Assembly (NCBI RefSeq): GCF_004210375.1
Contig: NC_134835.1
Span: forward strand, 66,680,447 to 66,744,446
DNA length: 64,000 bases
Direction: 5' to 3'
Origin: Tachypleus tridentatus
Lineage: Eukaryota; Arthropoda; Merostomata; Xiphosura; Limulidae
Of this stretch, positions 1-59,414 are shown in pieces. The notes under the pieces are model-generated. The model had not been told where the DNA came from and made no database searches. It saw only the letters and a program-made list of their open reading frames with translations. The position numbers and the translations under genes were made by a program. Position 1 is the stretch's first letter, and each line of letters starts with the position of its first letter.

Positions 1-2
1 TT

Positions 3-164
3 CGCTCAGACCTGGTGGATATCTTGAAGAAGAATTCTGGGGAAAAGTTGCGACATAAGCCACACAACGTAACTTTCAAAAATGGTCATCTTAAGACAAT
101 CAGTGGACAACCACATGAGAAAATTTATGTTGATGACCTGGCATTTCTTGACAACCCGACGGAG
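3..164 (+). CDS. Myosin exon 1 (partial, window edge)
   Basis: Reads in frame from base 3 to a GTACGT donor, phase 0. Encodes the approach to the motor, ending VDDLAFLDNPTE, which matches the DDLxxL lead-in of class III motors. TTCGCTCAG at the window edge could be an acceptor, so the true exon start may be base 10 or may lie upstream. Confidence 0.75.
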
Positions 165-3100
165 GTACGTATCCTGTAGATAACTAAATATTTTAACCCG
201 CGATCCTTAGGCTACGAGTCGAAGTACCATAATCACCTGGCCATGCAGGTCCCGACGTGTATTTGTTTTTATAACAAGGACACATCAGATTACTTGCTAT
301 GCCCATCGAGGGGAATCAAACTCTTGATTTACACAACGGGCTATCCATGCTCTGCCCACAACGGGTATCAAAACCACATTTCTATCAGTGTAAGTCCGCA
401 GCCATACTTTTGTGCCACTGGGAGCTCAGTACGAAGACTTACTATTTAAGTTGCTGGACGCTGTGACTGTGAATTTCTATATGATAGGAGAGTAGAAATG
501 GAAGCAAGTAAACTGTCGTCCTTGTACACTAGGAGGATTGTGGAACGTCTTCATAGAAACATGCATCGGTTTGGACATGATAGTCTTAGACCAGGCATAA
601 ATATTGTTTTTAAAATCACAATTTTTCTCGTACAATTAATCGAAGCTTGGATAATATTTATTTAATGTTTCATCGTGTCTGACACGTGATATAAATGTCA
701 TAGTGGCCTGGCTTCAGGAACAAAACACAATAGTCTGATTAAGCAATCAGTTGTGTCTTAGCTATTTGTATATACATTACTTCTTACCTTTAACCTTTCC
801 TTCAAGAATTATAGAAATAAACTTGGTAATCCTGTTTTTAAATGTTCTTTATTAGCTGAGTTTAAAGAATATTTTGATTTTAGTTTAACAGGGAAAGAAA
901 AGAATAAATAAAACTAACTGTAAACTAAACAATCCACATCTCATTCAGTTGTTGAATGAGACTAAATTCAACATTTAGTCAACAATTCTCATTCAAATGA
1001 GAATTTCTAAAGAAACTGGAGTGTAGATACTTAAAAAAAGTTGTTCTTATATATTTTATACATAAAATGGAGAGGAAAGTTTATGACATCGCTGTTGTTT
1101 ATATGTACGTTACTATAGGAAGTAGTCCTGGAGAATCTGGAGCAGCGATATAAAAAAGGAGAGATTCATACATTTGCCGGAGATGTTTTGCTGACTCTAA
1201 ACCCTGGCAAAGTTTTCCCGCTCTACGGAGATCAGGTAAACATAAATATCTTTGTTGACTTGCAAAACTAAAAAAATCACTTACAATCTATTCTTTGAGT
1301 TTTAAAAATAAAATGATTCCTTATCGAATAACTTGTAGTCCTTAATGCACATAAAACCTTTAAGTTGTATATTCAGTAGCGCAAGACTCAAAAAAATATC
1401 GCAAACGTATGTTAGGTGCAAACAATTTAAAGGTTTTTTTACTTTACAAACAACATTGTTTGTTCAGTCGTTAAATGTACGGTTTTTGACTTAATCGAAC
1501 AATGTTCGATCACAAGAGAGCGCTGATTACTTTCTTTGAAAAGAATCTAGTATTTTAAGTCTAGAAGATAATCATCCACAAATGACGAACACTTCCAGAG
1601 ATATGATGAACAAAAATGGATACTTTTATGCACAAACTTAGACAAATTGGTTCAGAATACACAGTCTAGGTGCAGAAAGATGTGTTCTGTCGAAATACAA
1701 TTGCACTAACTGCTCCTATTTTTTCAGCAATTTACTAATACACAGGCTTAGATTTCTATCTGTACAAATGTACCTCATACTTGTAGGCGAGTTGATCAAC
1801 AATGTGATGCTGCAGAATCTGGTTTTGATCTTTAGAACGACCAAATTTTATTGTAACAATAACGAATGGTATATATACACACACAAAAGAAGTTTTATTT
1901 TTAAATGTTAATAAGTATAAATTTAACCAAACTCGTCTCAAAGAAACATGTCATTTCATTTAACTATCAAGAGAAAAACTTGATGCCACAAAGACTTTGA
2001 ATTTGTTTTCATTCTTACTAATTAGTCTATGGGTGTGTGTAATATATTGTTTCTGTTCTGGAAGCTAGCAAAAGTTAATATATATATATATATAAGCATA
2101 AGTACCGCTTTCTGTTTTAGATACCAGTGACAGCTAATGTATCTATACCTATAAGAATGAATACTGATTTCTGTCCTGGTTAGTAGCAACAATTAATATA
2201 TTTATATCTAAAAACATAAATGCCGGTTTCTGTTCTGGATGCAAGCAACGGTTAATACATGTATAAGGATAAACACCGGTTTCGTGTATTCAAGAATACT
2301 CTTCAGCTTCCGAAACTTTTTTGATAACACCTAAAACATTGTTTGTTTTAAATGAATAATAATAAAAGAGTTTTAAGATGTATGTAGTTTCTGACACACA
2401 AACAAATATAATATTCACAGAATTTGATTTGATATGTTTAATATTTTTTGAAATAAAAAGATTGTTTGAAGTTCCAGACACTAATGTAGAAATGTTTTTA
2501 ATAGTTTATAAATTTCTTTTTACTATTTGAATGCTTCTAATTATTAAAACTTAAACAATCGGTTTCAGTATCAGTTGCATACTTAAAAGTATACAACAAT
2601 TTTAATCCCTTTTTCCTCATTGCTACCAAATTTTTTTTCTTTCTTCTACATGCATTTATAGATTTATAAAATCTAAACCTCATTTATAGTCTGCATTTTT
2701 GGAACTTTGAAATATAATTCTAATAGATAAATTACCTAAAGAAATATAATTTCAACTTATTAAAATAATCAAATAGTTTGGTAACAGGGATTTGTTTTCA
2801 CAGCAGGTTATTAATTCATTTGGTATAACTTCATCTTATGCCAAGTTATAACGACTTTTTTTATTAAATTAACAATAATTTTAAGTAATACAGTTATTTA
2901 AAAAATCATCATAAAGTTTAGTTACTTAAATATTTGTGATTTTTATGTGGCGCAACGATAAAATCGAGCAAACGAACTTACACAGTTTTTCTCGGACATA
3001 GACTGCTGCAAAATATTGTGAAAAAGGAAGATCGGATAATTCGCCTCACGTTTTCGCAGTAGCTGATCGAGCTTACCAGCAGATGTTACATCATAAAAGC

Positions 3101-6100
3101 CCCCAGGTAAGATTTGCAGGAATGGATTTTGAGCCAATCAAAAACAAAAACCAAAAACGCGCGTGCTTTCTTTCAGCAAAGCCACATTGAGCTATCTGCT
3201 GTGTCCGCCGAGGGGAATCGAACCTCTAAGTTGAGTATTTCAAATCCCAAACTTATCGCTGTCCCAAAGGAGAAGACAACAACAACCTACAAAACATAGA
3301 CATAGTTGACTTCAATGATACTTAGTTCTAGTTAAGCACAATCTTTAATTTTTAAGGCTTAGCCAGAATGTTTAAATTATTGAAATAAAATTATGCTTTG
3401 TTTTCAGTCAATATACATTTTGAGCTTCAAATATGAGAATAATGCAGTTTGATTGTTGTTTTGTGGCTAATATGAAAATATATAGTTACACCTGTCATGA
3501 CGTCTTTATACTCGCAATTTAAATTAATAAATTTTCATGTTTCTCATTTTTCTTAATAACAATATTTGTAATTAAACATCTTTAATAATGCATTTAAACT
3601 GGAATATTAAACTATATTTCAAATTTTCCTTAATAGATTTATCTTATTATTTCTTATATTTACACGGCAGCTTAAGTTTAATGCGAGAATTATGATTTAT
3701 ATAGTTTATGTTTGTTTGTAATTAAGAGCATAAGTCTACACCGTGGGATATCTGTGGTATGCCCACCACGAGTACTAAAACTCGGTTTCTAGCATTGTAA
3801 GTCTACAGACATGTCACTGTGACACTGGTGGCTATAGTTTAGGTAGTGCGAATGTTAAATTTAGTTATTTTCAGAATAGATAATTTATGACAAGCTTGTT
3901 TACGTAACTGTTTACGAATAATATGTTGTATAGTTCGATAGTCATGATTTGGAGATTGTTATATTATTGTGTCATGTTACTAGAACCTTTTGAGTCTGGT
4001 ATTTTCCCGTTATACTCCCATAAAGTTTTTACAATATAAATACATTGCTTCTTAATATATTTTTAGAAATGTATATATTATAATCATTATACAATTTTTT
4101 TATATATAACATTTATTATATTTATTGTATAACGGAAAAGTACCCTGTGGTTTTCTCGTTATTTTAATTGTGTATTATTCCATCGTAATATCTTGTAATG
4201 TATCTAGAACGTTCTTGACCTTTGTCAGGGTACAAATACATTTTGAAAATTTAGCTTCATAAATAGATTTAGACTGTGTATTTATGAATTTAGTCATAAA
4301 GAGCATATAATGCGATTTTAAAAGTGAAATTATCACAGATTGTATTGTAATAACACAGTAGAAAATAATAATTTGCTTGTCAGACTGTGTTCTAAAGTAA
4401 TTGAACCAGCTTATGTGAACCTTGACGATAAAGAGACTTTTATTTAAGGCTTTATATACAACTGTGATAATCAATAGCATAACAAACATTTGTATATAAG
4501 TTTGATTTGTTTTAATATATTATTTAAAAAAAAAGTGTATTGTGTGCTGTTTATTTATAGTTGAAATTTATCTCCACTTTATTCATTTATAGGCAGTTAT
4601 TTTGAGTGGTGTAAGTGGATCAGGGAAATCATTTTGCACTCATCAAGTCGTTAGGCATTTAGCCTATCTTGGAGCTGTAAGTACAAAGTATTTCTAGATA
4701 TCTGTTATTTTGCGTATCTTTATATTTATACATGTCATTCTATGCATTTATACACCTGTTGCTCTGTAATCAGCATTTACATGTGAATTAATTATCGCAG
4801 AACGCTTCACACCCCAAAATATTACATATTAACGTGAGTACTATAAACACTATAATATAACGTTAATTTTAATGAAGGTAGAATAGAGTATAAAAATATC
4901 TTGTTTGTCGTTAAACATGCAGCTAGTTGCAGTCGTCTATTTATGCTCTACCTACTTCGGTATCATATACCGATTTTAGTGTTATAAGCTTTCAAACTTA
5001 TCCTTGATCCACTGGAAGGAATTATAACAATACAAAATAAATGAAGCACATAGCTGAACAATGAACTTTGTGCACTTTTCCCACTGCAGAGATCGAACCA
5101 CGCATTTTAGCATTGTAAGCTTTAAAGCTTGCCACTCAATCATAATTAAAAAGTGTTTACAAAGCTTGATACAGTGAAAAAGAGTGAAAAGCCCTAGTGG
5201 ATATATTTTTTCTTTGCAATACACCCCTGCCAGGTGGCTCAGTGATAAATCTCACATCTTGTAACGCTGAATAAGAGGGTTTTGGGAAGAGCATAAACAG
5301 CCCACTGTGAAGATTTGTGCTTAATAACAAACAAAAAAAACGTTCATGTAATACACATTTTTCTTTGTTTCGAAGAAAAACAGAAAATGACTGCAGTAAT
5401 TGCTTGCTGTGTCTTTGTTGTAACCGTTCTTGTTCTCACATTCATGATATAAATTTTCAAAATAGATAAGTCAACCCAATTTCACGGTATTTATATCCAT
5501 AAAAAAACAAAACAAAAGAAGTAGCTAAAACATGAACAAACAGGGTTGAAACAAACATGTAAAAGAAGCATTGTGAAAATAATGTTCATAGCTTTGTTGT
5601 CCTGGGGAGGATTGAAAGAAAAACAATTTAAAATCTTGTTTTTATATCATGGACTTTAAATCCGGACATAGAATTGAACGGGAAACAATATTTGATGGAG
5701 CTCAAATTATTTGTTTATTTTCACGTATTACTACATATAAACGGACACGTTAATTTGATTTCTATCAAAACACCTGTTTATGTTAGCTGAGTTTATAGTA
5801 AATGAACAGTTGCTTCGAAATGTCATAGGTATATCTAAATCATACTTCATAAAATTATTCGTGAAATAACAGTTCATATACCAGCGATCTGTTTATCATT
5901 ACATGATATATATAGGTCATCTTCTAGCGAGAAAGGAAAATAAAATTATATAATTTTGAAATTGGTATAAAAGGCATTTCCGACCGTGGTGATGTCTTAT
6001 TATATCATCTCTTACAAGTGTCATCCAATGTCACACATTTCGCTACATTACCCTCTCTTTAGAAAACTTCAAACATTTTAAACAGTTTTAGCTTTGTCTA

Positions 6101-9100
6101 CTAGAAGTGTGTTTCATCAAGCACTCCTTGGAATGGTATAAATCATTAACAATATTGTGACGAAAAATTGACTAGTTTATCAAGTGTATTTTATTGTAGA
6201 CTAGTGTCTCATTCTTTGTGCGATACTTTTTTGTTTCAGCAAAATAAGGAAGGAATGAGAGAAAAGTTTGAGTATTTATGCCCTCTGCTGGACACTTTGG
6301 GAAATGCATATACTTCTACTAATCCGAATAGTAGTCATTTTGTAAAAATTTTAGAAATTACGTTTACTAAAACTGGCAAAATAACTGGAGGTAAGAAACG
6401 TTTCTCTTACTCATTTGTGTTTTGTAAATATACAGGTGAGGTTTCTTCAGTAATATAGGCCAACACAAAATACAGCTAAAAAGAGACATATTTTACAACT
6501 GAACACATTACAAAAATCGTTTACATTTATCTTCGGGTCGGTTTTACTTGCTAATTGCTTAACAAATTGTCTCAGTAAATTACATGTAACATTGGTAAAA
6601 ATTCGGTTTTGTAGAATAAAATATTTCTTGCTTACATGCAAGTATTAAATATTTGCTTAAAGGGTTTAATATGGCCAGGTGGATAAGACACTCGACTCGT
6701 AATGTGAGGGTCGCGGGTTCGTATCCCCGTCACGCCAAACATGCTCGCCCTTTCAGCCATAGGAGCGTTATAATGTGACAATCAATCCCTCTAATCGTTG
6801 GTAAAAGAGCCCAAGAGTTGGCGGTTGGTAGTGATGATTAACTGCCTTCCCTCTCGTCTTACACTACTAAATTAGGGACGGCTAGCTTTGCGCGAAATTC
6901 AAAACAAACAAACAATTTTGCTTAAAGTTCTGTAAAAGTGTCTTCTATTTCAGTAACTAAGGCGTTTTGATTAATGTTTAGGCCAAAAAGTTTGTTGGTA
7001 CATAATAAAAACTGAAAACGACCTGTTAAATGTTATTTTTCTATCATGCAATATTTTCGAAACAAATTCCGCAGTTCATGCTATTAGATCTCAAAAATGA
7101 TTTAAGTTATATCGTCAAATAAGAATCTAGTAATTTTTTATTCATTACTATAGTAGTTATTTTGCAGAAAAAGTTTTTAAAGGTCATAAAAATATGTACA
7201 TTTATCAAATATGAGAGAGCGTATGTAAAAACGCACCAAAGTGTATGACGAACAACTTACAAGTTATTTTGCAAGATGAAACTTCTAAAGTGTTGTTGTG
7301 GGACAAACAGCTTAGTACCAAAACGTACTCAGCCCAGGATGATATAGTGATCATTAAGTATGAAAAGTAATGATGGATGATTAGAATCTGGGCAATATAA
7401 AATATATTGTATTTGTCAATACTTTTAAACAAAATTTATTTAGGTTTTTAGCATAAAGCAGTATTTAAAGATGAGGCTATTACAGTTTCATCTAAAATGA
7501 TAATAAAAATGTGCAGAAAAACTTATTATGTCAAACTTCACACATATTTCAGGTGCAATTAAAACACATTTCATTTTTAACATTACATTTCTTATAGCAT
7601 TCCAACTGCAGTGAATATATTGCAAATCTTAAAATAGAACATCAGTTACATTTTACGTGGACAAGCTGTATACGTTGAATTGCAGTCGAAGATGCTATGA
7701 TAGCTGTATTACCACGAACGACATTTTTACCACTTATTTCCTGGGTTCAGGCAAATGTCACATTTATCGACAGTGAAATGTTTCAAGACGTAGACTTATG
7801 ATTCGGTATTAACATATGGTATTTCTAAAAATAAATCTTCATATAACAAGACTGTTAACCAATGTCAGATCAAAGTAGCTTTCATTTGTTTTCATGATGA
7901 AAAAAACAAAAAATTGAAACCACAACAATATTATTCGGCCACCTACCTGTGAAACGGCCCGGCATGGCCAAGCGCGTAAGGCGTGCGACTCGTAATCCGA
8001 GGGTCGCGGGTTCGCGCCCGCGTCACGCTAAACATGCTCGTCCTCCCAGCCGTGGGGGTGTATAATGTGACGGTCAATCCCACTATTCGTTGGTAAAAGA
8101 GTAGCCCAAGAGTTGGCGGTGGGTGGTGATGACTAGCTGCCTTCCCTCTAGTCTTACACTGCTAAATTAGGGACGGCTAGCACAGATAGCCCTCGAATAG
8201 CTTTGTGCGAAATTCCAAAAAAACAAAACAAAACAAACCTACCTGTGAAATCTTCCAATATAAATCAAGTAGAATTGTGTCTGTAATTTGCTTCGTATGG
8301 TCTTGGAAACTGTAAGTTTGGTTAAAGTTTTTTTTTTAGATCTATGATCTAAGAGTTATCTCATCAGTTTTCGTGAAAACTTGTCAAAATGGAAATTGCA
8401 TTGTCGCACAATTAGCGCACATTCGTGGCAATCAAATTGAGCACGTTTGGCAATGGAGAAAATAGTTACAAGGGAAAGGAGGTTGCAAAAGATCTTTACC
8501 ATGAAATGCAATTACCCTCAGTACACTACCATTACAGTGAACAGTGATTAAGCAGTAAATCTAAGTGTTCTTATGATACGCCATTTATACATTCCAATAC
8601 TTCACGTATGCTGTAACTATATACGAGATGTATTAAACTGTACTACCATGGGATATAAGAATTTTCAATATATAAAAACCCAACGAACAATTAGCAAATA
8701 TATTTAAATACTTCTGTGTGTATATGTGTGTATGGTGAGCAATACTTGTTTTGAAAATACCGAACAAACATTTATTGTAAAACTAGTATAAGGTAGTTAA
8801 GTAAAGTAACTGAAAAGTTATATACAGTTAAAGGTTACGAAACTTACTGCCACAAAAATAAGATAAAAGCAATTATTAACATTTACTTTTTCTTATGAGA
8901 GATACTATCTTATTGTACAAAAGAATTTTTAATGAGCTTGTTTTCTTACTAAAGTTTTCATTACTTTTACTTTTAATTTTATTAGGCCAAAAAAAAAAGT
9001 CTAAAGGTTATGCCTCATGATGATACGACTGTTTTGGTGTTGTGTTGTATATTGTAGTTATTTAATTTTAATACTTATAGCATCAAGCGGATAAAACAAA

Positions 9101-12100
9101 TATACATCTTTTGCAGCTATTCTTTTTACATTTTTACTGGAAGCAAGACGACTCACGGATATTCCAAAGTGAGTAAAGAGGAGACTCAGCATTTATTTAC
9201 CTTTTTATTTTGAATTGAAAAATCACACGTCGAGTTCTATCATGGTTAACAAAATATTAGGTAAAAATGTATTTGGATTTATCTCATCCTCATCCTCATC
9301 ATACTCATCCACTAAAATCATTACTGTTACATGAGTGACGTAACATTACTCACTTAGTCACTGCTTTTATCCTACTTTATGCATAAAATGAGAATTTTTA
9401 ATTTTTCTTTCAGGGGTGAAAGAAATTTTCACGTGTTTTACTACTTTTACGAGGGTCTGCGATCTGAGGGAAGACTAAAAGAATTTGGACTAGAAGAAAA
9501 GAACTACCGTTACCTACCGGAGTTAAAATCTTCCAACTCGTCAGAGTATGTTGAAGGATATCAACAATTCTGGAAAGCATTGACTTCTTTGGCTTTCACA
9601 GAAGAGGTAGGCCTAACTAGATCTGTATTGTTAACCACAGATATTGGAGATTATATCAATTATAATGAATCGTAAGGTACGCATGGAATATACGTTTTAA
9701 CAACAACAACAAAAAAACGACAAACACTAAATGTTATAAAGAGTTAAAGTAAAGGACTTTAAAGTAGTCTAAAGAATTATTAAATTCATCAGTTTGGTAT
9801 GAAAATAATTTCAAAAATGCCAAATACCAATCGTCAATAAAAACAGTTGTTAACTGAACAGTTAATAATATTAACATGAAATATGAAATTAGATAAATTT
9901 GTGTTATTATTAGCACAAAGTTATATAATGGGTTATCTGTCCTGTGCCCACCACGAATTTCTAAACCCGATTCTTAGCATTATAAACCTCATTGCGGACT
10001 GTATAAAAACATATTTTCAAACATACTTGTTATTTGTATTTCATTCTAGCCGCAACTGAAATTCTTGACATTTTCGAAAAAGGTGTCGAATACCTCAAGT
10101 TTTCAGAAGAATTTGAGAAACCCTTTTAGATTAGATTAATTTAGACAATGGAATTGTGCATTTACATAATTACGAATAGGTTACCTAAAACGCCAAAGCT
10201 TTATAAATTGTATTATTACTGGCTCTATGAACAATTATTATAAAATAAAAATATTTTAACCTATTGCAGCTTGTGTGGCTTCACTGATATCTAATTACCT
10301 AAGTGTCTTAATAGGAAATTTTCGCCATTCAGAAAGTATTAGCAGCCATTTTGTTACTAGGAGAAACAGAGATTCAAAACACTGCAGGTAAGTTTATTTT
10401 ACTGATCTTTATTGAATTTCTAACAGACACACTCGAAGTATGTTGGCGGAAGCTGTCATTAATATAACAATAATAGACGAGAGGGTTTCTTTTATGAAAA
10501 AATTGGATTTTATTGTTACTCTTACAAAACACCCACAGTTCCAAAGTGTGGAGGGCATAACTTTAGGGGTAACTGAGCACCAATCACGAAAGATCAAATT
10601 CAAATCTGCAGTGTAGAATACTAAGCACTGGGCCACGCTTGGCTTGAGCAAGTAAATATTTACTGTTTGATTATTGATGTCCACAAAACTGCACAATAGG
10701 ATATCTGGGCTGTGCCGATCGCGCATATCAAAACCAGATATTTAGCGTTATAAGCCCGCTGATATATCACTGAACCACCAGTAGCCAGGTAAGAGTTGAA
10801 AAACTCGATTAATATTCAGTATAACTGTTTTTTTGTCAGGTTACATCCACAAGCTAGGGCATAGATATCACTAGAATCAATTATTGTTCACCGTGTGATC
10901 TTAGCTTTGTCTGTTACTGGTTGTTTTTATATGTTAATTGTGTAAAGAGCAAAGAATTATATGCTAATAAAAGTTCCTCATTACCCAAAAATAAAAGTTT
11001 CGGTTTTGAGTTTAATCCTTTTTAACCCTTTGTTTTCACGAGACATTCATGACACTAAAGTCATACAACAAAATATTTTCCATCTTTATTTTAGCATTTA
11101 AACTTTTGGGTGCTCAGTCAAGCGAACTGGAAAACACCCTAACTGAAGACGTCAATGCACGAGACGTTTACGCACGAGCTATGTACCTCCGTTTATTTTC
11201 TTGGATCGTTGCAGTGGTGAACAGGCAGTTATCATTTTCGCGCCTTGTGTTGTAAGTAAATAAAAACTCCACAAAGTAGAAGAAAATACACGTTTAGTGT
11301 TCTTGTCAAAAGCTATATTTATTCAAATGCATTTATGTAAGGAAGAAAGATATTTCTCCGTAAAAACAAAAAACAAGAACACAGAAACAGAATAACTAAT
11401 AACACCTGGACATAATTTACATGGTGTAGAAATACATAATTTATGCTCATTGTAAATAGGAAGTAAGACCTACACATCTATTTACACTATCTTCTGCAAT
11501 TTCTGTTGTTTTCTTTTTGATAGAGAAAGAATTTGTTCCTTAAACTAGTATTTATTTATTTTCAACGGTTTGGTTTGATTCTCTTTAAGAGTACTCCTCT
11601 CTTACTTGACTGCATCTCCAGTATTATTAGTATTTTGCATAATTTACGATGTAGCATAAAGAATATGGAAAACTAGGAAATCATTTGATTATGAAAGCAC
11701 TTGTTAGTCTTAATTTTTATATAACTACTAAAGAAATTTCCTAATTGACAATCTGATGTTAAATTCAAACTGTGATTTTAATAGTTATGAATAATTTTAC
11801 GGAATTTTATGTAAATGAGAAACACACAAGAAACATTCATCGCTAACGTCATTCTCAGTCAGCATTATTTTTTATAGAAGTTTGTTGGAAAGGTGAAAAC
11901 TTTAGATACATTACTTGTGTGTTTGTTTGTGTTTTCTTATAGCAAAGCCACATCGGGCTATCTGCTGAATTACTTGTGTATATTACAATCAATAATTTGT
12001 TTGTTGCTAGTGGAATATGTTTTACGTCATATTGCGGTTTACTAACCCTTTTATCAAACATCTTTTTTTTTTTTTTTTTAGTGGTGACGTTTATTCTGTG

Positions 12101-15100
12101 ACAGTAATTGACTCTCCTGGCTTCGAGGATGGATCCCACAATTCCTTGCGTGAACTCTGTGCTAATGTTATCAGTGATAATCTGCAGAATTACATTCAAC
12201 AAATTATTTTCTTTAAGGAACTGGTAAAAAGAACACAGCAAAGATATTTCTTTAATTGAACTACTACAATAAAACTGGTTTTGTTTTTCTGTAGTACAAA
12301 ATATTTTGCGAAACGAATATTATCTTATAGAAATAGTAATCTAAAACTTTAATCAGTGATGTCAAGAAAACCCACTTGTAGAGAAATATATATGCAAAAA
12401 CGGCTCGTTTCGGTTGAGAAAATATTTTACATAGAAGAGCGAAAACGTTTCGACCTTCTTCGATGACCTGACGATGACCGCTCTTCTATGTAAAATATTT
12501 TATCAACCCAAACGAGCCGTTTTTGCATATATAATAATCTAAAACTTTAATAATTTGTATGGATAATTCGAATGTGCATTTATTTAACTCTTCAAAATAT
12601 TATTATAGTAATCGCAATACGAAATAATACAATAAATAATTTTGTAAAACACGAGTATTTCATAAATATTTAAACCTCATTGCTAACGCAAAAGCTAAAA
12701 CTGAACTATGCAATATTCGAATAAAAAACTAAAAGCCTTTCTATCTATGTTGTTATGTAGCAATTCATGTTTTCGTTGATATATAAACAAATATACATAT
12801 ATCATAAATAAGCCGTTTGTGAATATGTTAACATTAGGTTCGTTAGACAGTCCTAGCAAATTTATGTACATAATTACCCAATTATTCTAAAGGATGTGAC
12901 AGTTAGATAGATAAATGTTTCTAAAGAAAATTTCTTTGTAGGAAGAATATGGCGAAGAAGGCGTAACTGTTCCTTTCAACTTAGAAGGAGGAGTTGACCA
13001 CAGGACTTTAGTGAATAAGTTGATGGATAGTGGTCAAGGATTACTAACTGCTATAAGCAAGGCAACTCAATACCAGAGAAAAGGAGAATCCGGATGGATG
13101 GGTGAGTTTTACTAATCAGCACTTACCTCATACTAAATCCTTTTTAGTCAGTCTTTTACTTACAATTATGAAACCCGCTGTTCTTTTAATTTGCATTTTT
13201 TACTGAATTGTTAGCTTTCAATGTGTAATCAGTCGTGAAATAGGATACGTTTCATGGACAAATTAGCGAGGATTAAATGTTTTTTGAAAGTGTCTGATTT
13301 AGTTGTGATTCTAATTGTACTCTTTTTACATTTTAAATATTTAATCTACAATGGACATTAGTGTTTACCTTATGCTTATACACATTATGAAAGGTAACAT
13401 TCGGGTTCAATAGGAAGTCGGCCCCCTACGGCCAAGTGGTTAAGGCGCTCGAATCGTAATCTTAAGGTCGCAATTTCAAATCCCCGTCACACCAACATGC
13501 TGGCAGTTTCAGCCGTGGAGGCATATATAATGTTACGGTCAATCCCGCTATTCGTTGGTAAAAGAGTAGCCCAGTAGCTGGTGGTGGGTGGTGATTACTA
13601 GCTACCTTCCCTCTAGTCTTACACTGCTGAACTAGGAACGATTAGTGCAGATAGCCCTCATGTGGCTTTGCGTGAAATTCCAAACAAACAAAGAATCAAT
13701 CAACGGAAGGTTGGTAAATAGTTTTCGGTTTTCGACAAGGATGGCGAAAGTTTATTACAATAGAAATTGAAGTATCAAGCAGTAGTATTGTGTAACCACG
13801 ACCATCATTCTTGACGATAGAGACACAGGTATTTGTACGAAAACAGTATTTATGGGAAGAAAAATAATAAATTGACTGTCACACTTATAACGCATCCACA
13901 GCTTAAATTGCATAAAATATATTGTGGTATCACACTGATTAAAACCCTACTCATCAGATCCGAGCTTCAGAGCCTCACCACATGACCAAAGATACAAGAC
14001 CTGGAATATCAGTAGTCTTGTGTCTTTGGTGACAGATACAAAACCATTGTGACATAAGAAAGTGTTTTATTACTTGAGAAATAAGCTTTATGGAAATGTA
14101 TTATTAATAGGGATATCATACGAGTACAAGTTTTATGAGCGTGTATTATTTGTTAGTGATAAGTTTATTTTTTTAAATGAAAGTATGTTTTTAGTTAAGG
14201 AATCTGTTCTTAGCAACACATTTTAAACCTAAAGAAAGTGTTTTAGTAGCGAGGGAGTTGTACTTTTTAAACCAGAAAATTAACGAAAGTGTAATTTGTA
14301 CAGCAATGTAAAGGTTAACCGGAAATATCAATCCCATGCAGATAAGGGTAAAGTTTTTCAACTGTACGACTAGTAGCAATATGTGCTCATGTTATAAAAG
14401 TGTGTTACAAGATGATATGTTTTATTAAAATGAGTCGATTGTTGGAACAATAACTTCTTATTTTAGTGTTTTATCAGCTTAACATTTACATTATTTCAAA
14501 GTTTATTCATAACAGATGTATACATTATATAAATGCATGCAACTAACCAACGAATTTGAAGCGGTGGAATAAGTTTTATTTAAGTTGTTATAGTGAGTAC
14601 AGTTTTATGAAAAAACGTGTTATTAGCTTAGGTTTTATATTTTATAAATTGTGTTATTATCTGAGGTAGCTATATAGCCAAGTACCAAAGTTTGGGTATG
14701 CCTGGCCTTATGATAGACGGACAGTAGATGTACACACCCTTATAGGTGAGTCTCAGTGTTCGGATGTGAGACCCACCAAATAGAGTACGAGTACTCATAG
14801 GGGCCTGGTATTAAGTGGGCAAGTTACAACACTGACTTGAGGCTGTATGGTTCAGTAATGTTTGACATTAGCTGAAAAAATAAATATTATGAAAGCGCTA
14901 AGTTGTAATGATATACATATCTTAAAGCTATTCTTTTATACAGAGATATATATTTCATGCAGTTGTGTTGTTAAGTACAGGTTTCTGTTTTATGTAGGTG
15001 TATAGTAGTGCTATTATATAGGGGTATATATACATATATTTTTATGTAAACGTGTAGTAATAATGTTATATAGGGGTATGCACTTTATGTAGGCGTGTAG

Positions 15101-18100
15101 TAATAATATTATAGAGAGTACATGTTTTAAGTACGTTTGTCGTGGTACTGTTATATAGAAGTATATGTTTCATATAGGTGCGTAGTAGTATTGTTATATA
15201 GAATGTATGTTTTATGTATATAAAAGTATATTTTATAAAAAAAATGTTATTTTATTAATCGGAAGTATATATTTTTTACATAGTAATATTTATCAGAGAG
15301 CATATATTTTTTTAAAAAATTTACACATTGAGTTATTTGTAATCTGTCCACCGCTGGAAATCGAAACCCTGATTTTCGCAATGTTATTCTTGAGACTTAC
15401 CAATAACGCAACGGAAGGACATTAGTGAAGGTGATTACAATTTATTATTTAAATGCTATAGATTTCCAACATATTGATTGACAATATTTTATTTTTACAG
15501 CCAGTCTTCAGGAAGCAGACAGTGAAGAATTGGTTGAGTTTTCTAACGTAAACGGTAAACCTATCGTTTCGGTAAAACACATTTTTAAAAAGGTTTGTGG
15601 CGACTTGTTTTATGTTAATAGCACAATTTTTGTCATATCGTAAAAGACAGTAAAACTGTTGCTAAAAATTGTAACGATTTAGAATAGTTGTTTTTTCTTG
15701 TATAAGTTTTACCCCTTTACGACTTTAAGTTTAACTAACTTGGTATCGGTCGGTTCTAAGCCAAGAATGTTTACAACTTAGTGGCTGGCGCAGTCAGCAA
15801 CAATATAAGACCAGCATGTTCGGTCACAGGGTTTCAAACTCGCGATCCAAGCGCCTAAGTCACCAGACTTTTGGAATGTACAACGTTGCTTAATTATTCA
15901 AAAATTTATATTATATTCTCAAGCTATACATGAACATATCTTACTTATTTTATTTTACCCTATCACTGCTGTGATGATTCCTTTTTACAAGAAACAAAAT
16001 AATCGAACGAGAAAACAAACATCAGAAGTTGTACATACTCAGTGTTTAAAAATAACTTTAAAATACTTACCCATTTAAAAGTATATTGCCTTGAGAAACT
16101 CCAATATTCACTATTTTCCAAGATATATATACATACAACTTTTTTTTTTTTTACCGAAGCTGTCATAATCTGAAAACTTATAGTATTTATAATAGAAGTA
16201 TTTATTTATAGGTAGAAATTTGGAAATTCACTTCAGGATCATCAGAACATGAAATCTATAAACTTATGCTAACAACAAATAATTTTTTATCACTGTAAGT
16301 ACAAACTTAGTGAGATAACTAGATTCAACTGAGGAGGTTTATAAAGAAGTTACCCTGGTTTTGACATGTCATTATGATCAAATACTATATCCGGTTACGA
16401 AAAAAAAATATTTTCGAAAAATACTTTTTTTTTTAGAAATCAAGTTATTGAAGCAATTCATTAACCGAACAAATAAACATAAGCATTAAATAAAGACTGG
16501 ATTATTTCAGGTACATTACGATGCAACAGACTTGGTTAAGAAGAATGTTGAAGATAAAACAAGAACTCTGACGTTAACCATGCAAAGATCCTGTTATCCT
16601 AGAATACGAGCGATTTTTTCTAGCGGTAAGTGTGTGTGTTTTCTTATTGCAAAGCCATGTTGGACTATCTGCAGACTAGTGGTATGTTTAAAGAGTCTGT
16701 TCTGTTCAATTTCGCGCAAGGCTCTCCAGGGCTATTTGCGCTGGTCGTACCTAATTAGAAGTGGAAGCCAAGTCCAAAAAATGAAGATAGTTGATAAAAC
16801 ATACATTTTGCTGATAACGTTTGAACGTTTCGGAAAAAATTTATTCCACCTTCAAAGAAATCTGATAATCGTGTTACGAAGATGATAATTGAATAAAATT
16901 ATAATAACATAATCATTCGTTTATCTAGTTATTAAGAACAGCAGTAAATGAACGGATAAAACAATGATTATATATATATATATATTACACAACTATCGTC
17001 AGGGTTACCAAAGGAGCTAAGCAGTTTTATACTTCTGTTTATCATAAAATAACTTTCACTGATCTCTACACTAATTTCAATAGTTTGGCTCAGCATGGCA
17101 TTCGACTCGTAATCTGAGGGTCGAGGGTTCGAATCCCCGTAGCACCAAACATACTCGCCCTTTCAGCCTTGGGGGTATTATAATGTGACGGCCAATCCCA
17201 CTATTTGTTGGTAAAAGAGTAGCCCAAGAGTTGGCGTTGGGTGGTGATGACTAGCTGCCTTCCCTCTAGTCTTACATTGTTAAATTAGGGACTTCTAGAG
17301 CAGATAGCCCTTGTGTAGCTTTGCGCGAAATTCAAAAACAAACATACAATTTCAATAGTTTTTATCTTTAACTTCTTCAAACGTATTTTGATTATACCAT
17401 TATCAAACAGAATGTTTAACCTTTGTTTCAGTTATTTTATTTTACACAAATACATTATTCATCTACATAAACACGTGTTAAGTAATGACAACCAACTGAT
17501 TTTTAACGAAAATTATACCCAATCTTCAAAACAATAAATTCCAACTATTAGCGAATGTACGTACTGTCCCTGTATTTCACCTAATTATTTAATCTTCCTT
17601 TTGCGGGTTCGCAATCTTAAAAATTAAAAAAAAAAACTCTCTTCCTTGATTAAAAAAAAAATTCTACCCTCAAATTCAGCTTAAAGTAATATACAGACCT
17701 AGCTTCTACATAAAACACTTGTTTCAGTACAAAGATCAAGTACCTAGACTCGTACTGACTTTAAGAGCACCTACAGTTGTGATACAAAACGTCATTCAAA
17801 AACTAGGGTCTGTGAACATTTAGGAGTATCTAACAGAACCAGTTTTCCATTACTTACACCCAGTCACTCTATTCGTTTTTTTCACATTCTGAAACCACAG
17901 GTCACAATATTTCATTTAACGATTTCTCTGTCATTACCACAGAATCTTCAGACCTTGAAATCTACATTAAAGAAAGTCAACGTATAACCAAAGACCGTGT
18001 GATTTACAAAGCTCTTTAGATTTGAAACTTTTCTCAATCCTCATATTTAAATCAGCTGTTGTGTAATATGTATGTAATCACTATTTTATACGTCCCTTTA

Positions 18101-21100
18101 CCGCTCATGACTACATTATTATATTGTACTTTTGTTAATAATTATCTCTGTAATACGATTTTCAGATATAGCTGAAAATGGAATAAGCTATTCAGAATCG
18201 TTCGAACCTTGTAAATAAAGTATTTGGCTTTTGATTAACCGTCTTCATTAATTTGTGGCATTTTGTTTTGTTTGTTTGTTTGGGAATTTCGCACAAAGCT
18301 ACTCGAGGGCTATCTGTGCTAGCCGTCCCTAATTTAGCAGTGTAAGACTAGAAGGAAGGCAGCTAGTCATCACCACCCACCGCCAACTCTTGGGCTATTC
18401 TTTTACCAACGAATAGTGGGATTGACCGTAACATTATACACCCCCACGGCTGGGAGGGCGAGCATGTTTAGCGCGACGCGGGCGCGAAATTTTGTTTTGT
18501 AAACACGTTTTCTCTGACCAATCAAGGACGTTTGATAGAATTGAAAATTATGAGAGACCTTGATAAAATTATGTTTTTTCTTAGTTTATATTGTAAGAAT
18601 TAATTTAATAACGAGCATTTTCACTAAACCAATGTATTTTTTTTTCTGCAAATACAATACTGATTTACATAGCTTTTTAACAAATACTAACTTCCGGATA
18701 TATTTTAAAAACAAGTCAGTCAGTTATACCTGGTTTTAATGTTATCCGTTTCTCTAAGGTAAAAACAGGATTTGTATGTAGTTTTATCAAGATTATTGTA
18801 ATTCAAAAGTGATTATAAAGTAAATCTCTGTTTAAATGGCTTTGTAGCTAATGTTTGTTGTTTTTGTTTCTAATTTCGCGCAAAGCTACTCGAGGGCTGT
18901 CTGCGCTAGCCATTCCTAATTTAGCAGTGTAAGACTAGAAGGAAGGCAGCTATTCATCACCACCCACTGCCAATTCTTGGACTACTCTTTTACCAACTAA
19001 TAGTGGGATTGATTGTCACATTATAACGCTCCCACGACTGAAAGGGCGAGCATGTTTGGTGCGACGGGGATTCGAACCTGCGATTCTCAGATTACGAGTC
19101 GAACTCCTTAACTCATCTGGTCATCTGTAGCTAATGAGTGATGCAGTTTTTAATAAGTAGGAAGTGGATTGAAGGATTTCATCAAAAACAAGTTGTACAT
19201 TGTTTTGGGGTGTCGGTAACAATATCAGGTGTTTGAATTACCCTACCCCCCTCTCCATCACGTCCCCATGCATAACAATTTGTGCATCCAAACTGAAAAA
19301 GATGTGATAAATTGTTGAAGCCGATTTAAATCAGTTTAATAAGATTTCTTTACATGAAATCGATTGATAATTAAAATAATTGCAATACTTGATTACGGTG
19401 TGATTTATAACGTGTTTTAGTTGCATAAATACGCAAGTAATCCTGTACCCGTAATAAGGTTTTATAAGGTAGTTATGAGCATTGGACTCTGCTTTCTACC
19501 ATATAATCCTAGGTTTTATCCCCTTTCCTTTTTAAGCTAATCTTCTGTTTTTACCACAATCTAACTTATAACCACTTTTATACCTCTTGTTTTAAGAATC
19601 TATAAGTAAATATCCTTATGTTAAGAAAACAAAGTGTTGACTTGTAAAAATATTTAAAAATAAAACAAAAAGTTTATTTCATCCAGAAAACCCGATTCCA
19701 TTCCTGAACAGTCCCCGAAGATCATCTATTCAGGTAATGTTTATAATTTTCTTTACTTAGTAACTAATTGTGGACAAGCTTACAACTTGTGACACCGTTA
19801 ACTAAACGATTGGTTTGGTTTTTGGAATTTCGCACAAAGCTACTCGAGGGCTATCTGTGCTAGCCGTCCCTAATTTTGCAGTGTAAGACTAGAGGGAAGG
19901 CAGCTAGTCATCACCACCCACCACCAATTCTTGGGCTACTCTTTTACCAACGAATAGTGGGATTGACCGTCACATTATACGCCCCCACGGCTGGGAGGGT
20001 GAGCATGTTTAGCGCGACGCGGGCGCGAACCCGCGACCCTCGGATTACGAGTCGCACGCCTTACGCGCTTGGCCATGCCAGGCCGCCGATGATGGAAGGA
20101 TTAGTCTAAGGGTTGGCTTTTGTAACGCAAAAATAGGATCATCCTTTTTATAAAATGTAATATATCCATAGTAATCAGATACTTTTGATCGAGATAGCTA
20201 ATAAATGGACGTAGATGTAATTTTTCACATGTAGAGAAAACAAAACAAAAATATTTCATCTTTTGCATTGATTTATATCTTTTCTTCATAAACTATTTTG
20301 AATATTGTGGACGTCTAACACTGTAACTAATAATTCAACAGTGACACTTACCAAGAGTCGTTGGAAGTCGCTCATGTACGAATTTCATATTTTTAAACAT
20401 ATAATTATGTTCCTTAGCCAATAGAAAATCACTAGTTATGATGTCGTTTGTTAAATATGAATTGTCATACGACATTCAAATCCATGTTAGTTTATAACTC
20501 AATGATACTTAACTTACAATTACGAATATAACTTTTAATTGTCTAAAATTAAATTACTTCTGTGCAACAACAGTAAAATTACCAGAAGCTAATTAAATAC
20601 TTTTCAGTTCCAACCTAAGGACGCCAAAAATACAAAAAATAAATTTAGTGGTGTCGTCTGCACTTTACATTTTAATATTTTAAATCAAATGTTGTTTTAT
20701 ATTTTATAAATTCTCGTCATCCATGGTTAAAATAATCTTATATTTTGATGCGTACATTTTTTATTACATGATGAAAGATTCGTTTTCTTATAGCAAAGCC
20801 ACATTGGGCTCTCTGCTGAGTCCATGGAGGGGAATCGAACCGCTGATTTTAGTATTGTAAATTCGACGACTTACCGCTGTACTATCGGGTGACGCGATGA
20901 AAAAGAAAACGCATTCTGTTTATTACACCAGAAATAAACAGTTTTTCTCTACGTTTAAATTACTGACATTAACGTGTCATGGAAAAAAAACAAACAACTA
21001 AATATCGCTGGATGGAAAGATCTCTCAGAATATTTTATAGCAATAATAAAATTTCATTAATAATAGATAGGAGACTACATGACTGTTTAATCAAGAGTGA

Positions 21101-29647: not shown

Positions 29648-30287
29648 TTGTTAAAGCGAGTAACGGATTGTAAATTATATTTTATTCATATAAATTGTCT
29701 AAGTTTTTATAAAACCAATGACTTGATAACGAATAAAAAAATCGGTTTATGATTATTTTTGTAGCGAATGAGTACTAAACTACTGAAACTTACCGAAAAT
29801 ATACAGTTGTTAGGTTAGGGAATCAAAGCTTAAAATTAAAATGTCTTATCCTAGATGAACCTAGAAAATACGAAGAATTAACCAAATGGATTCGAAGAGA
29901 AATGATGACGTTATGTATAATTGATGCAAAGTTTCTAAACAATGTTAGTTTTAAAATACCTTATCTACTTTCCAACGTTGGTTTCCCTTCCTATGTATCA
30001 GATACGAGATTCACTACTTTCACTTTGTAACTGTTCTTTATTCCCTTGATTATTCGTGAAAATCAGAACAAAAACAAAACCGAGTTGAATTTAACGCAAT
30101 GCTTTTCAATTACTTATTCGATTACAATACAATATTAGCTGAATTAGCCAAATGACTCGAGGAAATCCGAGAAAAGACAATGCCTTCGTTATTTAACTCA
30201 AAATCACTTTGATGTATGCCCCAAAATTTTATTAAAATATTAATTTTCATTTTTTTACCTTTATTATTTACAGAAACAGATTTTACC

Positions 30288-30372
30288 ATGAGATTTGTTG
30301 TGCTTGTGCCCTTAGTGATTGCCGCCATGGTCACTGCAGTAATGGCAACTCATTATCATAGAAAATATGGAG
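30288..30372 (+). CDS. Tyr/His/Gly-rich peptide, coding exon 1 (signal peptide)
   Basis: Starts at the first ATG after the acceptor at 30273. Encodes the hydrophobic signal peptide and THYHRKYG, ending at a GTATGT donor in phase 1. Confidence 0.82.
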
Positions 30373-30897
30373 GTATGTACCCTTTAAATCTCGTTCAGCT
30401 ATTTAAAGCTTTAAAGAAGGACTAAAAACACTGATTTAGCATAATATCTATAACTGTTAGTGTAACCATGAAACTAGTCATTCAACTTGGCCTTTTCATT
30501 AAAATATTTTCTTCTTATTATAAACAATCAAATTAAGTCCTCAATACAACTTAACCAGTTTAACCTAAACTGTATTGTATATCACAGTACAAGAAATATA
30601 AAGAAATTTTCGATGAATAATACAGCTGTTAAAGTTCCCAAACCAGCACGTAAGCAACTCTTCATCAAAATATTCAAATCACAACCTCATAATTTTTATC
30701 ATTTCTTTTTAGATTCTATCGTATTTCCAGGTGAATATCAAGGCGGCTATCACAGACACTACGGATTCTCAGGGCATCTAGGTTCACTAGGTTACCACGG
30801 CTATCCTAGCTACCCTCAGTATTACCATGGCTACAGTCGGCCCTACGCTACTTACCATAATCAGTACCACAGATTCCCACATCGTGAATTTTACTAA
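30288..30897 (+). CDS. Secreted Tyr/His/Gly-rich peptide (two coding exons)
   Basis: Exons 30288-30372 and 30731-30897 join in phase 1 to give 83 residues. Residues 1-20 (MRFVVLVPLVIAAMVTAVMA) are a clear signal peptide with cleavage likely after Ala20. The mature part of 63 residues has 15 Tyr, 10 His, 10 Gly, 5 Arg and no Cys, with motifs such as GGYHRHYGF, GYHGYPSYPQYYHGY and YHNQYHRF. That composition suits a cuticle or matrix protein (Tyr cross-linking, His metal binding) or a linear cationic antimicrobial peptide; sequence alone does not decide. An acceptor (TTTACAG, exon start 30274) lies 14 bp before the ATG, so a noncoding 5' exon should exist upstream. No homolog is recognised. Confidence 0.82.
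30731..30897 (+). CDS. Tyr/His/Gly-rich peptide, coding exon 2
   Basis: Acceptor CGTATTTCCAG; encodes the mature Tyr/His/Gly-rich part and stops at TAA 30895-30897. The reading frame also extends upstream into the intron (to 30487), but that part lacks the composition and is not coding. Confidence 0.82.
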
Positions 30898-42466: not shown

Positions 42467-45400
42467 GTAGGTGTCGCTCATACTTTGTTTTGTAAATTCA
42501 GTTATTAAATATTGTATATGCATGATGGCATTTTATGGGAGTAAACAATTCTGGTTGGTGTTCTATAAAATAACAGCAACAACAAAGGTAGCTAAGTGTT
42601 ATTGTAGTGTGAAAAGCCTGCAAGAAGTTGAAACTAATTTTTTAGCTATTGTATAACAGCATGTTAATTTTGTAAATGTTGAATGGTAAAGAGCAAACAC
42701 TGAATTATTAGTAACTTGAGATTAATAGGAAACTAATTGTATAAGTATAACCAATAATAATTTGCAATTAATGTACATCTATTGAAAATAATAGTGTAAT
42801 GATGAACTGACTAGCAAATAATGTTAAAAATAAATAAGTGAAACAACACTTTACTAAATAAAACTGCTTTATGCCAGTTGTATAAATGAAATTAATTTGG
42901 TGCCAAAAATAAATGCCTAATATTACATCTTACTTTGTATAGTATTGCTATCATATAGATGTAGAAAGTAAAACTTCAGATATAGTGCAAAAAAAAAAGT
43001 TTACAGATATACAATGAAATGACAATAGCATATTGGTTCAGTAAGTTATATAGTATAATACTTTAGTTCAAATTAAGAATGCAAGAACAATAAGTTACAA
43101 ATAAACTAGGGGTGAAAGTCACTTCTTTAATGCATAATTTAATTATAGAGTGACGAACCTAAAGTAACTAAAAGTTAAAACTACAATAAATTCTGTTTTC
43201 TAGAATGACGTAACTGAAGAGGAACAGAGATGGGGCTCTAAGACTATTGAGGGATCTGGCCGTACAGCTGGTGCTATTGAGTGTGTGAAAAAAATTTCTC
43301 TCTTTTGTTGTTTTCTGCTCAGTTATAATATGTGATGTACATAGCCTTGATCTGTAATTTAATTGTTTAATCACAAGCAAGATCTATTATGCACTATTCT
43401 TTAATAAATTCACATTGGTTTATGAATTAAGGAAGTTCTTACAAGTAGAACAGTGTTGATTTTGTTGTTGCTTGTTAAACTTTGATTTATGAAAAACAAC
43501 CAAATTTGTCAGAATTGGCACTAATTTTAGAAATTATATAAAGCAGGTTGTGAAAAAGCATCCCAGAGAAATTTATTTATTTGGGTTCTTTGAAAGATTA
43601 TAATAACAATTTTGCTAAAATTGTACTGGAATTCACATTATTATATCATGTTTATGAATTTATTAAAATGCTATTATGAGTTAAAATATGTTCAAGAACA
43701 CTTAATGCTATAGGAAGCAATGAAGTTCTTGTGATTTAATTTGTAAGATTTTGTTTAAAAAAAAGAAGACTGATTTGCATTAAGAATGTTATTAAGGTGA
43801 TCACACATGGTTTGATATGTGTTTCAGATTTTTACATGTAAATGAAAGTAATAATGTGATACAATAAAACAAATTGAAAAGCAAGTTACTCTTTACATTT
43901 TGTTGACCTGAAATCTTGTATATATGATATATTTTCTCAGATACTGCAAATGCAAACTGTTTAAGTTGTTTTGTACTATCATGGAAATACAAATGTGGAA
44001 AAGAATTTGTTAAATTTATGTAAGGCAATAAGCCATATTTAATTAATTGATTGTGCTGAAGAAAAGGTTCAAGAAAATTCTCTATCATAGTCCAAAAATA
44101 TGTATTTCATTCCTACAGTTTTATTATTCCTGACATATAAGTATTATAGTGGCCATTTTTAATTTGCCTCCTTTAAAAAGATCAGACAAACTAAAACTGT
44201 AAAAATAGAATATTTTTACATAGCTACATATCTTAATCTTCTAATTTCATAATGTTCTGTGGTCAGAAAGTAGGAATTGCATAATAGTTTTCCTTGTGGT
44301 TGATTGTTGAAGTGCATCTTCAAAGCTGTTATTTGACACCAATGTTGAGATGATTTTTGTACATGCACCAAACTGTGAATGAAATTCCCAACCCCTATGC
44401 ATATTAATGTGTACTGAATTGGTCTGTGCTTCAATTAGCATTACACCATAGCTACTCACATGTTCTACTGCAGTACTTCTTCTGAGCCCACCGCTAGTTC
44501 TACGCTAAAATGCAGTGGGCTGAGCAGATAGCCCTATGTGGCTTTGCTATACGAAACACACACAGTACTTCTTCTGAACATATTGTATGTATACAAATGC
44601 TATTTATTTTCTTAGCATTACAAATGCTTCAGACCTGTCTTGTTTTCATTATAAATCATGGAAATTTTACACTTATTTTAAGGTTTTAGTTAACATTCAG
44701 AATGTTTTCTTTCTTAGAAAGATACTGTATTTACTAATTTCAATTAGAATTTTTGGAAAAAATTATCTTTATAAATTTAAATAAAATTATGAGATTTGGG
44801 ACATGTAACCCAGGGTTTCTGATATTGTTTCTCTGACAGAAATATTCTCTATCATTATTTACTCAGTTTGTATTTCAATAATTAGTATCAATTTCATTAT
44901 TACATCTATGACCTCAATGTTTTTGTTTTTTTAAAATCTAAATAATTCTTAGTTACTAAGCGTGATAAATTAATGAAATTCTACATATCAGTGTACTTAT
45001 TATTTTTTAGTATTCAACTATATATATAAATCCTAAAAAAATTTTGATATGCTTTACATGTGAAATTTTAAAAGACTTAGCAATGAATGCACAGCAACTT
45101 GTATATTATACCGAGCTGACTGCAAGAGGGTGAAGAAGAAAATTTAAAAAAAATTTAAATTGTTTCATGGATCAGCTTGACTATGAATTTGCACATTTGT
45201 GAGTTTGACATCTACTGAGATCCTGGCATTCCAAAACATGAGTGATTTTTTATAATTTAAATATCAGTTGGAGGTATTTTAATAATGTTTTGATGACATG
45301 TCAAGCTGTTTTAAGCAGTTTCTTTTGCTTCTGGTCCTTCCTCTCATGTTGAGGGACAAGTGATCCCATTTTTATATTTTACTGCTTTGTGTACACAGGT

Positions 45401-57400: not shown

Positions 57401-59372
57401 CTGAGAGATGGACATACTCAATTAGCCTGAGGTGTTTTCTCCTAGATATTCTGAAATTGCTTTTTTGTTGATCCTGGGAGAGAATTTGTATTCTGTTTTA
57501 TGACACATTTCTTTACAAAGTTGGCTTCTCATAGGTTCAGTTTGATCCATTTCCTACTCCTTTTCTTCTGTTGGTGGTTTGGATTTTTGAGATTTTGGGG
57601 TTTTGTTCCTTCTGAGTTGGTTGAGGAGAGAAGGATTATTTAGTTTCTTCTCCTTCCTGATTTTTCTGGTTTAGGCTGGAAGATTTACTGTTTTATTACA
57701 TGACAGGATACAAAAATTGTATCTTCTTTTATCTGTTTGCTTGCCTTTGTTTTCTGCTTCTTGGTAGAACATTTTTTTTTGGCAGCTGACATGTTGATGT
57801 CATATGTTGGAGTTTGTTGGCATGTTTGTAAGTCTGTCTTTCCTTAGGGCCTACTATATCCTGATAGGTGCTTTCTTTTTAAGTCTATGGCAAATAGGGA
57901 AGAAGATACATCCATCTTTGCAGTTATTTTGCCATATGTTTTTAACCTTTGCAATCAATTGTAATCTGATTGATTTTGACCTATTGGATGTGGAAGTGTT
58001 ATGTGACCTACTTTATCTCCTTTTGTGGTGATTGTCTTGACAGTACATATATTAGGATACTTCAGTTTCCCTTGATTTTCCCATTTTCGTAGAGGTAGAT
58101 TCTGAAAGATTCTTTTTGTATATTTGGTCTTTACAAGTGAGGTATCTTTTGAGTTACATCTCATCTAATTTACCACATTTGTCTTTTTTGCCCATTTCAT
58201 TTATCCAGTTTTGGACATTTTACACGTCAGTATTTAGACTTCTCCCAGTGCTTTTCTCTCATGTTCTTTACATACTTAGGCAGCTTTTCTCTGGAGCTTT
58301 CCTCTACCTTATGATCATTTTTAACAACATCAACTGGATTATAATGAGAGGAAGCACTTTTATCACAATCTTGTCTTTTGGTTTCCCAGAGTCCCTTATG
58401 TCTTGCTTTCACTGGATTCCACTTTATTGTGAATGTTACCCATACAGATATGCTTCTCTCAGTCCAGTTCCACACTAACAACCACTCTGATTATCATTAC
58501 TACTGGTTGCAACAGGCTATGTAGAAGTGAGGTGTTTCATTAGGTTCTAGGTGCTTATTGTATGGTATTACCATATTATTATGGATTGCTTCTCATGTAC
58601 TACCATGAGTAAAGCTAAAGGAGATGCTGCCTGTCCCTGTTGGTCTTCAGATTGAATAAATTGGTATCAGTTTGTTTTTAAAAATTTAGGGTACTTAGTT
58701 CTACTGCACTGTTCCTTAGGGTTCCCCAAAGAGTTATATCCCTTAGTTTCTACTAATGGAGCTAGGGAGTTCTTACCACCACCAGTTTCCAGTCACTGGG
58801 GTAGTGGATAGTGTTAAAGTGTGTTCCTCCATTCTTGGAGAAGAGGGTGAAGTTGAGATGCCCACTTACTCGGGTCCTTGGATGTTTTTCTCAGATGTTA
58901 GTATAAGTGACACCAGCCTCCATGAGAGCCTACTTGTAATTCCAATTCAGATTTGACACTACTCTATCTTGCTGGTGTCTACTTGGCCTTTTCTTTGATC
59001 AACATTGGCTTTGTATATTGTTTATAGAAGGAAGTCCACTATCTTCATGTAATTTTAAGCATGAAGTGCTGTCATCATAAATTTCTGGTTGAGCACAGGT
59101 TCCATGTCATCTCCATAATTTCAGGGGCAAGCGAAATACTCCTTGCATACTTGACTTGGGAATGAGGATAAATGTTCATAATTCTAGACTGGATAAGTTC
59201 TCCTTGATTGAGTATGGCCTACATGAATCTATTGTTCTGAGCCTAGAGTGTTGTATTTTGGACCTCTTCAGGTGGAGGAGAAAGTTTGTCCACTGCGGTG
59301 TTTCTTTCTCACCGTAATTCTGGTGGTGCAAAATGCACCACTCTCTGGCTACAGAATGAAATCCAGTCAAAA

Positions 59373-59414
<42 letters not shown>

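Follow-up and report, generated by a model that had tools for sequence, protein, structure and literature searches.

A predicted NINAC-type kinase-myosin with altered nucleotide-binding motifs in Tachypleus tridentatus

Gene model and kinase domain

The window analyzed here, a stretch of 64,000 nucleotides of Tachypleus tridentatus (NC_134835.1, positions 66,680,447 to 66,744,446 of the forward strand), contains most of a myosin gene that we designate C. Judged by its sequence, C is classed as a class III myosin of the NINAC type (‘class XXI’ in one scheme) with an N-terminal kinase and altered nucleotide-binding motifs in its head. The upstream exons encode a Ste20-type Ser/Thr kinase whose nearest solved structures are TNIK and MAP4K4. 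The kinase and head exons have matching phases and an open frame across them, and we infer that both parts belong to one transcript. In Pfam, the joined protein matched Pkinase at 1.1e-52 and Myosin_head at 1.4e-103. The catalytic residues of the kinase are kept: VALK (Lys51), HRD150, DFG170 and APE. After HRD the sequence reads IRAAN, in which Arg stands in the position of the TNIK Lys; a provisional Drosophila NINAC sequence (‘provisional NINAC’ below) likewise has Arg. Identity between the kinases of C and provisional NINAC is 42%. Assignment of C to class III in its broad sense is based on the kinase-head fusion. The NINAC type is class XXI of Odronitz and Kollmar, and arthropods have both true class III and NINAC-type myosins, according to an excerpt of PMC2375034. 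The kinase went unseen in a preliminary description of the window, since its exons lie outside.

The coding model of C has 25 exons and 1021 residues without an internal stop. Its start lies at window coordinate -12836 (position 66667610 of contig C11), 12.8 kb upstream of the window, and its TAG stop at 23671-23673. Inside the window are 17 of the exons; the 18 exons of the preliminary description were not borne out. In a search of the window plus 50 kb upstream, provisional NINAC matched 19 of the 25 exons, from the kinase to the IQ motif, while exons 14, 16, 19, 20, 21 and 22 were placed using reading frame, phase and splice score. Each of the 24 introns has GT-AG ends, but such sites were used in constructing the model and so give no independent proof. 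From the stop frequency of the introns (2309 in 33396 codons over three frames), 1021 codons should contain about 71 stops. None is seen, but the expected figure is inflated since open exons were chosen for the model. The predicted mass of the protein is 116.5 kDa. A single IQ motif (IQAIARKYIVK, residues 1002-1012) follows the converter, and the protein ends 9 residues past the IQ core with almost no tail. The exons in the window are listed below.

Exon 9, 1..164 (first base one before the window), forward strand: kinase-head linker, IRSDLVDI...DNPTE
Exon 10, 1119..1235, forward strand: start of the myosin head
Exon 11, 3002..3106, forward strand: head, SPHVFAVADRAYQQMLHHKSPQ; matched stretch 64% identical to provisional NINAC
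Exon 12, 4593..4676, forward strand: P-loop GVSGSGKS
Exon 13, 6240..6390, forward strand: switch I NPNSSHFVK, His in place of Arg
Exon 14, 9117..9168, forward strand: mini-exon ILFTFLLEARRLTDIP, preferred among three candidates on splice sites and phase; alignable with provisional NINAC and with MYO15
Exon 15, 9414..9606, forward strand: head, GERNFHVFYYFYEGL...
Exon 16, 10315..10387, forward strand: head, 13-residue deletion after LLLGE
Exon 17, 11095..11251, forward strand: head, lacking 18 residues of the cardiomyopathy-loop segment
Exon 18, 12082..12223, forward strand: switch II DSPGFE and relay helix
Exon 19, 12942..13101, forward strand: head, unmatched in the NINAC search
Exon 20, 15501..15613, forward strand: head, from splice phases; weak donor (5 of 9 consensus bases)
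Exon 21, 16511..16625, forward strand: head, from splice phases
Exon 22, 19687..19733, forward strand: proposed loop 2 NPIPFLNSPRRSSIQ with an RRxS site of the protein kinase A (PKA) type
Exon 23, 21566..21819, forward strand: SH helices region
Exon 24, 22119..22230, forward strand: converter, 77% identical to the provisional NINAC stretch
Exon 25, 23539..23673, forward strand: end of the head, IQ motif, stop TAG at 23671-23673

By eye, tRNA-like short interspersed element (SINE) repeats are present in introns of C and just past exon 19, at 6673-6905, at 7955-8230 and near 13415.

Exon 22, with a splice score of 4.19, is the better of two candidates in the right phase for the proposed loop 2; its rival at 20418-20485 scored 3.99 and contains no RRxS. 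Looser cut-offs gave five candidates. The proposed exon reads PRRSS, a candidate PKA-like site. Agreement between this RRSS and the PKA site reported for Limulus myosin III is not independent evidence, since RRSS partly guided the exon choice.

Motor motifs, paralogs and other myosins of the genome

The P-loop of C reads GVSGSGKS, switch I NPNSSHF and switch II DSPGFE. The altered codons are E180V (GTA), T186S (TCA), R238H (CAT), G240V (GTA), I455S (TCT) and S456P (CCT), in Dictyostelium numbering; D454, G457 and E459 of switch II are kept. These readings agree with the preliminary description, which had placed three altered motifs at 4593-12223, an interval whose limits coincide with the first base of the P-loop exon and the last base of the switch II exon, and had noted His for the switch I Arg beside a retained switch II Glu.

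A whole-genome search with the C head, in which 60 candidates were scored, gave two further loci with several matching exons each, both on contig 8, and weaker hits elsewhere. In paralog A, located at about 23.27-23.30 Mb, the motifs are canonical (GESGAGKT, NDNSSRFGK and DIFGFE). The kinase-like exon at 23273490-23273648, 8.7 kb upstream, was attributed to A because of its proximity. Paralog B, at about 6.18-6.21 Mb, reads GESGSGKS, NSTSSRCAR and DYLGFE; its kinase-like exon is found at 6181281-6181412. A search for a loop 2 exon in B did not resolve one. All three heads are of the class III type with kinase exons in or near the gene, but A and B keep the switch I Arg; C alone of the three loses this Arg and the P-loop Glu. 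In motif state A is canonical, B intermediate and C most altered. Not every motif letter is unusual: Ala to Ser and Thr to Ser in the P-loop also occur in MYO15 (GESGSGKT) or B, which leaves Glu to Val as the sole strong P-loop change in C.

A tree was built from five sequences, namely A and B as roughly joined, C, MYO15 and provisional NINAC. C grouped with B (support 80) and both with NINAC (support 100), with A and MYO15 apart. The exact branching is insecure because of the provisional NINAC sequence, the approximate A and B, long branches and the raw identities given below. Placement of C and B with NINAC, and of A apart, fits the published co-occurrence of both types in arthropods (excerpt of PMC2375034).

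A and MYO15 are identical in 197 alignment columns. Of these, 109 are kept in C, which has gaps in 7; B keeps 105, with gaps in 12, and provisional NINAC keeps 107. Overall conservation of the C head is no worse than that of B or NINAC. The head had been described as otherwise well preserved, which these counts and two deletions do not bear out. After LLLGE, C is shorter by 13 residues than B and provisional NINAC, A and MYO15 being incomplete there, and a search of 10388-11094 for a mini-exon restoring them gave one weak 9-codon candidate that was not accepted. It also lacks 18 residues of the cardiomyopathy-loop segment that A, B, provisional NINAC and MYO15 all possess.

Loose motif patterns were also run, as a control, over 26 further myosin loci of this genome (25 distinct, because L006 and L046 cover one and the same region). 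GESGAGKT was read in all three P-loops recovered, N-x-NSSRFGK in five of five switch I motifs and DIxGFE in 15 of 16 switch II motifs, a sample biased to canonical heads because most loci were strongest Pfam hits, most carry one motif only, and motifs far from the pattern are missed. NFKSSLFHK (L017) and LDARGFG (L047) were left out as lying outside a myosin context, and L016 was uncounted, with no switch II string in an exon that begins after switch II. The exception among the 16 switch II motifs, L050 (C13:228225082-228228300), is a myosin fragment, myosin VI-like by eye, in which DIAGFG replaces the switch II Glu by Gly; it is possibly a second altered myosin in this genome. L047 (C4:100062542-100065709) contains a myosin P-loop fragment with in-frame stops nearby and is perhaps a partial or degenerate copy.

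Other features were observed downstream of C, all on the forward strand. A cortactin-like gene extends over 52671-63219. Its HS1 repeats, at 61629-62159, match Pfam HS1_rep at 2.5e-82 in four stretches, and other frames close by look repeat-like; the piece 52671-52823 had no Pfam match. Two frame pieces at 30213-30894 resemble a short secreted peptide rich in Gly, His and Tyr with a signal-like start, and the two parts tested had no Pfam match. Pieces resembling a long interspersed element (LINE)-type retrotransposon are found at about 45300-49800; of two tested, one matched Exo_endo_phos_2 weakly, below the Pfam cut-off, and one was unmatched.

Evidence for and against an impaired motor

We consider it probable, at roughly 0.7, that C is a NINAC-type class III myosin with an ATPase-crippled head, which serves in photoreceptors as a kinase or scaffold associated with actin. 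The ATPase would be crippled by switch I Arg to His, P-loop Glu to Val and the Ser-Pro of switch II. The protein would be anchored on actin by its head, which would thereby position the kinase there, and phosphorylation of loop 2, instead of the ATP cycle, would set actin binding. We infer ATPase loss, actin binding, phosphorylation and photoreceptor expression for C from sequence and from related proteins. A salt bridge links the switch I Arg to the switch II Glu in other myosins. Replacement of the Arg by Ala or Glu abolished the ATPase of smooth muscle myosin, and Arg to Glu likewise that of Dictyostelium myosin II. Since mutation of the same Arg abolishes or lowers ATPase in other myosins, impaired ATPase in the C head is likely, and the abnormal ATP cycling proposed in the preliminary description appears reasonable. 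In Limulus, Kempler et al. are said to have found in 2007 that myosin III is an active kinase with a PKA site in loop 2, and that it binds actin and has no ATPase. Among the passages seen of the literature on Limulus and class III myosins, we found no statement that Limulus myosin III lacks ATPase. Phosphorylation as a control of actin binding by class III myosins is reviewed in PMC6981383 (excerpt), and the proposed PRRSS of C would be consistent with it. LpMyoIII is a marker of Limulus photoreceptors in an excerpt of PMC4898813.

Several points weigh against an ATPase-crippled tether. The region of the 18-residue loss makes an actin contact in myosins, which weakens the tether idea. The change from Arg to His is one base from an Arg codon. 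Raw identities, taken over differing column sets, are 39.8% for C and A, 39.4% for C and B and 35.5% for C and NINAC, and do not single out the NINAC group. In an excerpt of PMC6981383, Kempler et al. are among the papers cited for a fall in the ATPase activity and actin affinity of myosin III on autophosphorylation, which sits uneasily with the reported absence of ATPase in the Limulus protein. Much of the pocket of C is kept, including GK[ST] with its catalytic Lys and Ser, the switch I Asn and both Ser, and the switch II Asp, Gly and Glu, so slow hydrolysis is possible. C could accordingly be a slow working motor in which His still hydrogen-bonds the switch II Glu and the head tolerates its other changes. 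Arg to Gln in myosin VI reduced activity without abolishing it, human MYO3A is itself slow at about 1 per second (excerpt of PMC7947357), and binding of NINAC to actin is ATP-dependent (excerpt of PMC3433705). However, C combines multiple simultaneous pocket changes with two head deletions, and the smooth muscle and Dictyostelium mutants lost their ATPase outright; we regard a slow motor as unlikely.

The preferred reading of C as a crippled NINAC-type myosin is compatible with orthology between C and the published Limulus myosin III, in which case the behavior of this very gene would already be known. This identity has close to an even chance. C is of the NINAC type with a short tail, and the proposed RRSS of loop 2 fits the PKA site reported for the Limulus protein. 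Against it, paralog B is also a candidate, the loop 2 exon of C leads narrowly in splice score and the search for that of B did not resolve one, and the predicted mass of C, 116.5 kDa, is below the 122 kDa reported for the Limulus protein. Somewhat less probably, C is a further NINAC-type paralog distinct from the published Limulus protein, with an active kinase on a head that lacks the switch I Arg and the cardiomyopathy-loop segment. One genome would then hold a series from the canonical motor A through the intermediate B to the pseudo-motor kinase C. A pseudogene or assembly artefact is very improbable: Arg to His and Glu to Val are each one base from the canonical codon, but no stop is seen against the inflated expectation of about 71, and the kinase keeps both its similarity to provisional NINAC and its catalytic residues. 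Membership in class XVIII, to which the pocket changes in style and the Pro of switch II bear a resemblance, has next to no chance. It is contradicted by the N-terminal kinase, by the absence of a PDZ domain among the seven Pfam families matched and by the lack of a long tail, and the Arg/Glu pattern of Myo18 is reversed, a comparison made by description as the tree held no class XVIII sequence.

Comparison with known myosins

C resembles Drosophila NINAC as a kinase-myosin fusion, with shared stretches such as MLHH and CRLL.LRLKM.GW. In contrast to C, provisional NINAC still has both the Arg of switch I and the Glu of the P-loop (GESYSGK, NNDSTRC, DMFGFE), as well as the segment that is absent from C. 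Limulus myosin III, reportedly described by Battelle in 1998, is like C of the NINAC type, and is reported to have a loop 2 PKA site, to bind actin and to lack ATPase. It is described in the literature as the NINAC homolog of the Limulus eye.

Class XVIII myosins are not known to carry a kinase and have a long coiled-coil tail, and some isoforms have a PDZ or KE-rich N-terminus. The likeness to this class that was drawn in the preliminary description holds as an analogy: in Myo18 the P-loop Glu is replaced, switch II has Thr and Pro with Glu changed to Gln (DTxGFQ), and ATPase is negligible (excerpt of PMC11112018). As membership it fails, given the kinase, the tentative grouping with NINAC and the reverse lesion, since in Myo18 the Arg is retained and the Glu is gone, whereas DSPGFE of C keeps the Glu and C has lost the Arg. 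Dachs (myosin XX), another actin-binding myosin that has lost its ATPase, is not known to have a kinase and belongs to a different class from C.

Myosins that bind actin without ATPase form a small known group, which includes Myo18, Dachs and, reportedly, Limulus myosin III. C may work as a kinase or tether bound to actin rather than as a walking motor; such a mode is reasonable but not new, as the idea has already been published for other myosins. C may add a different lesion to this group, loss of the salt-bridge Arg rather than the Glu. Because canonical and intermediate paralogs share its genome, stepwise loss of motor chemistry in a kinase-myosin can be tested here.

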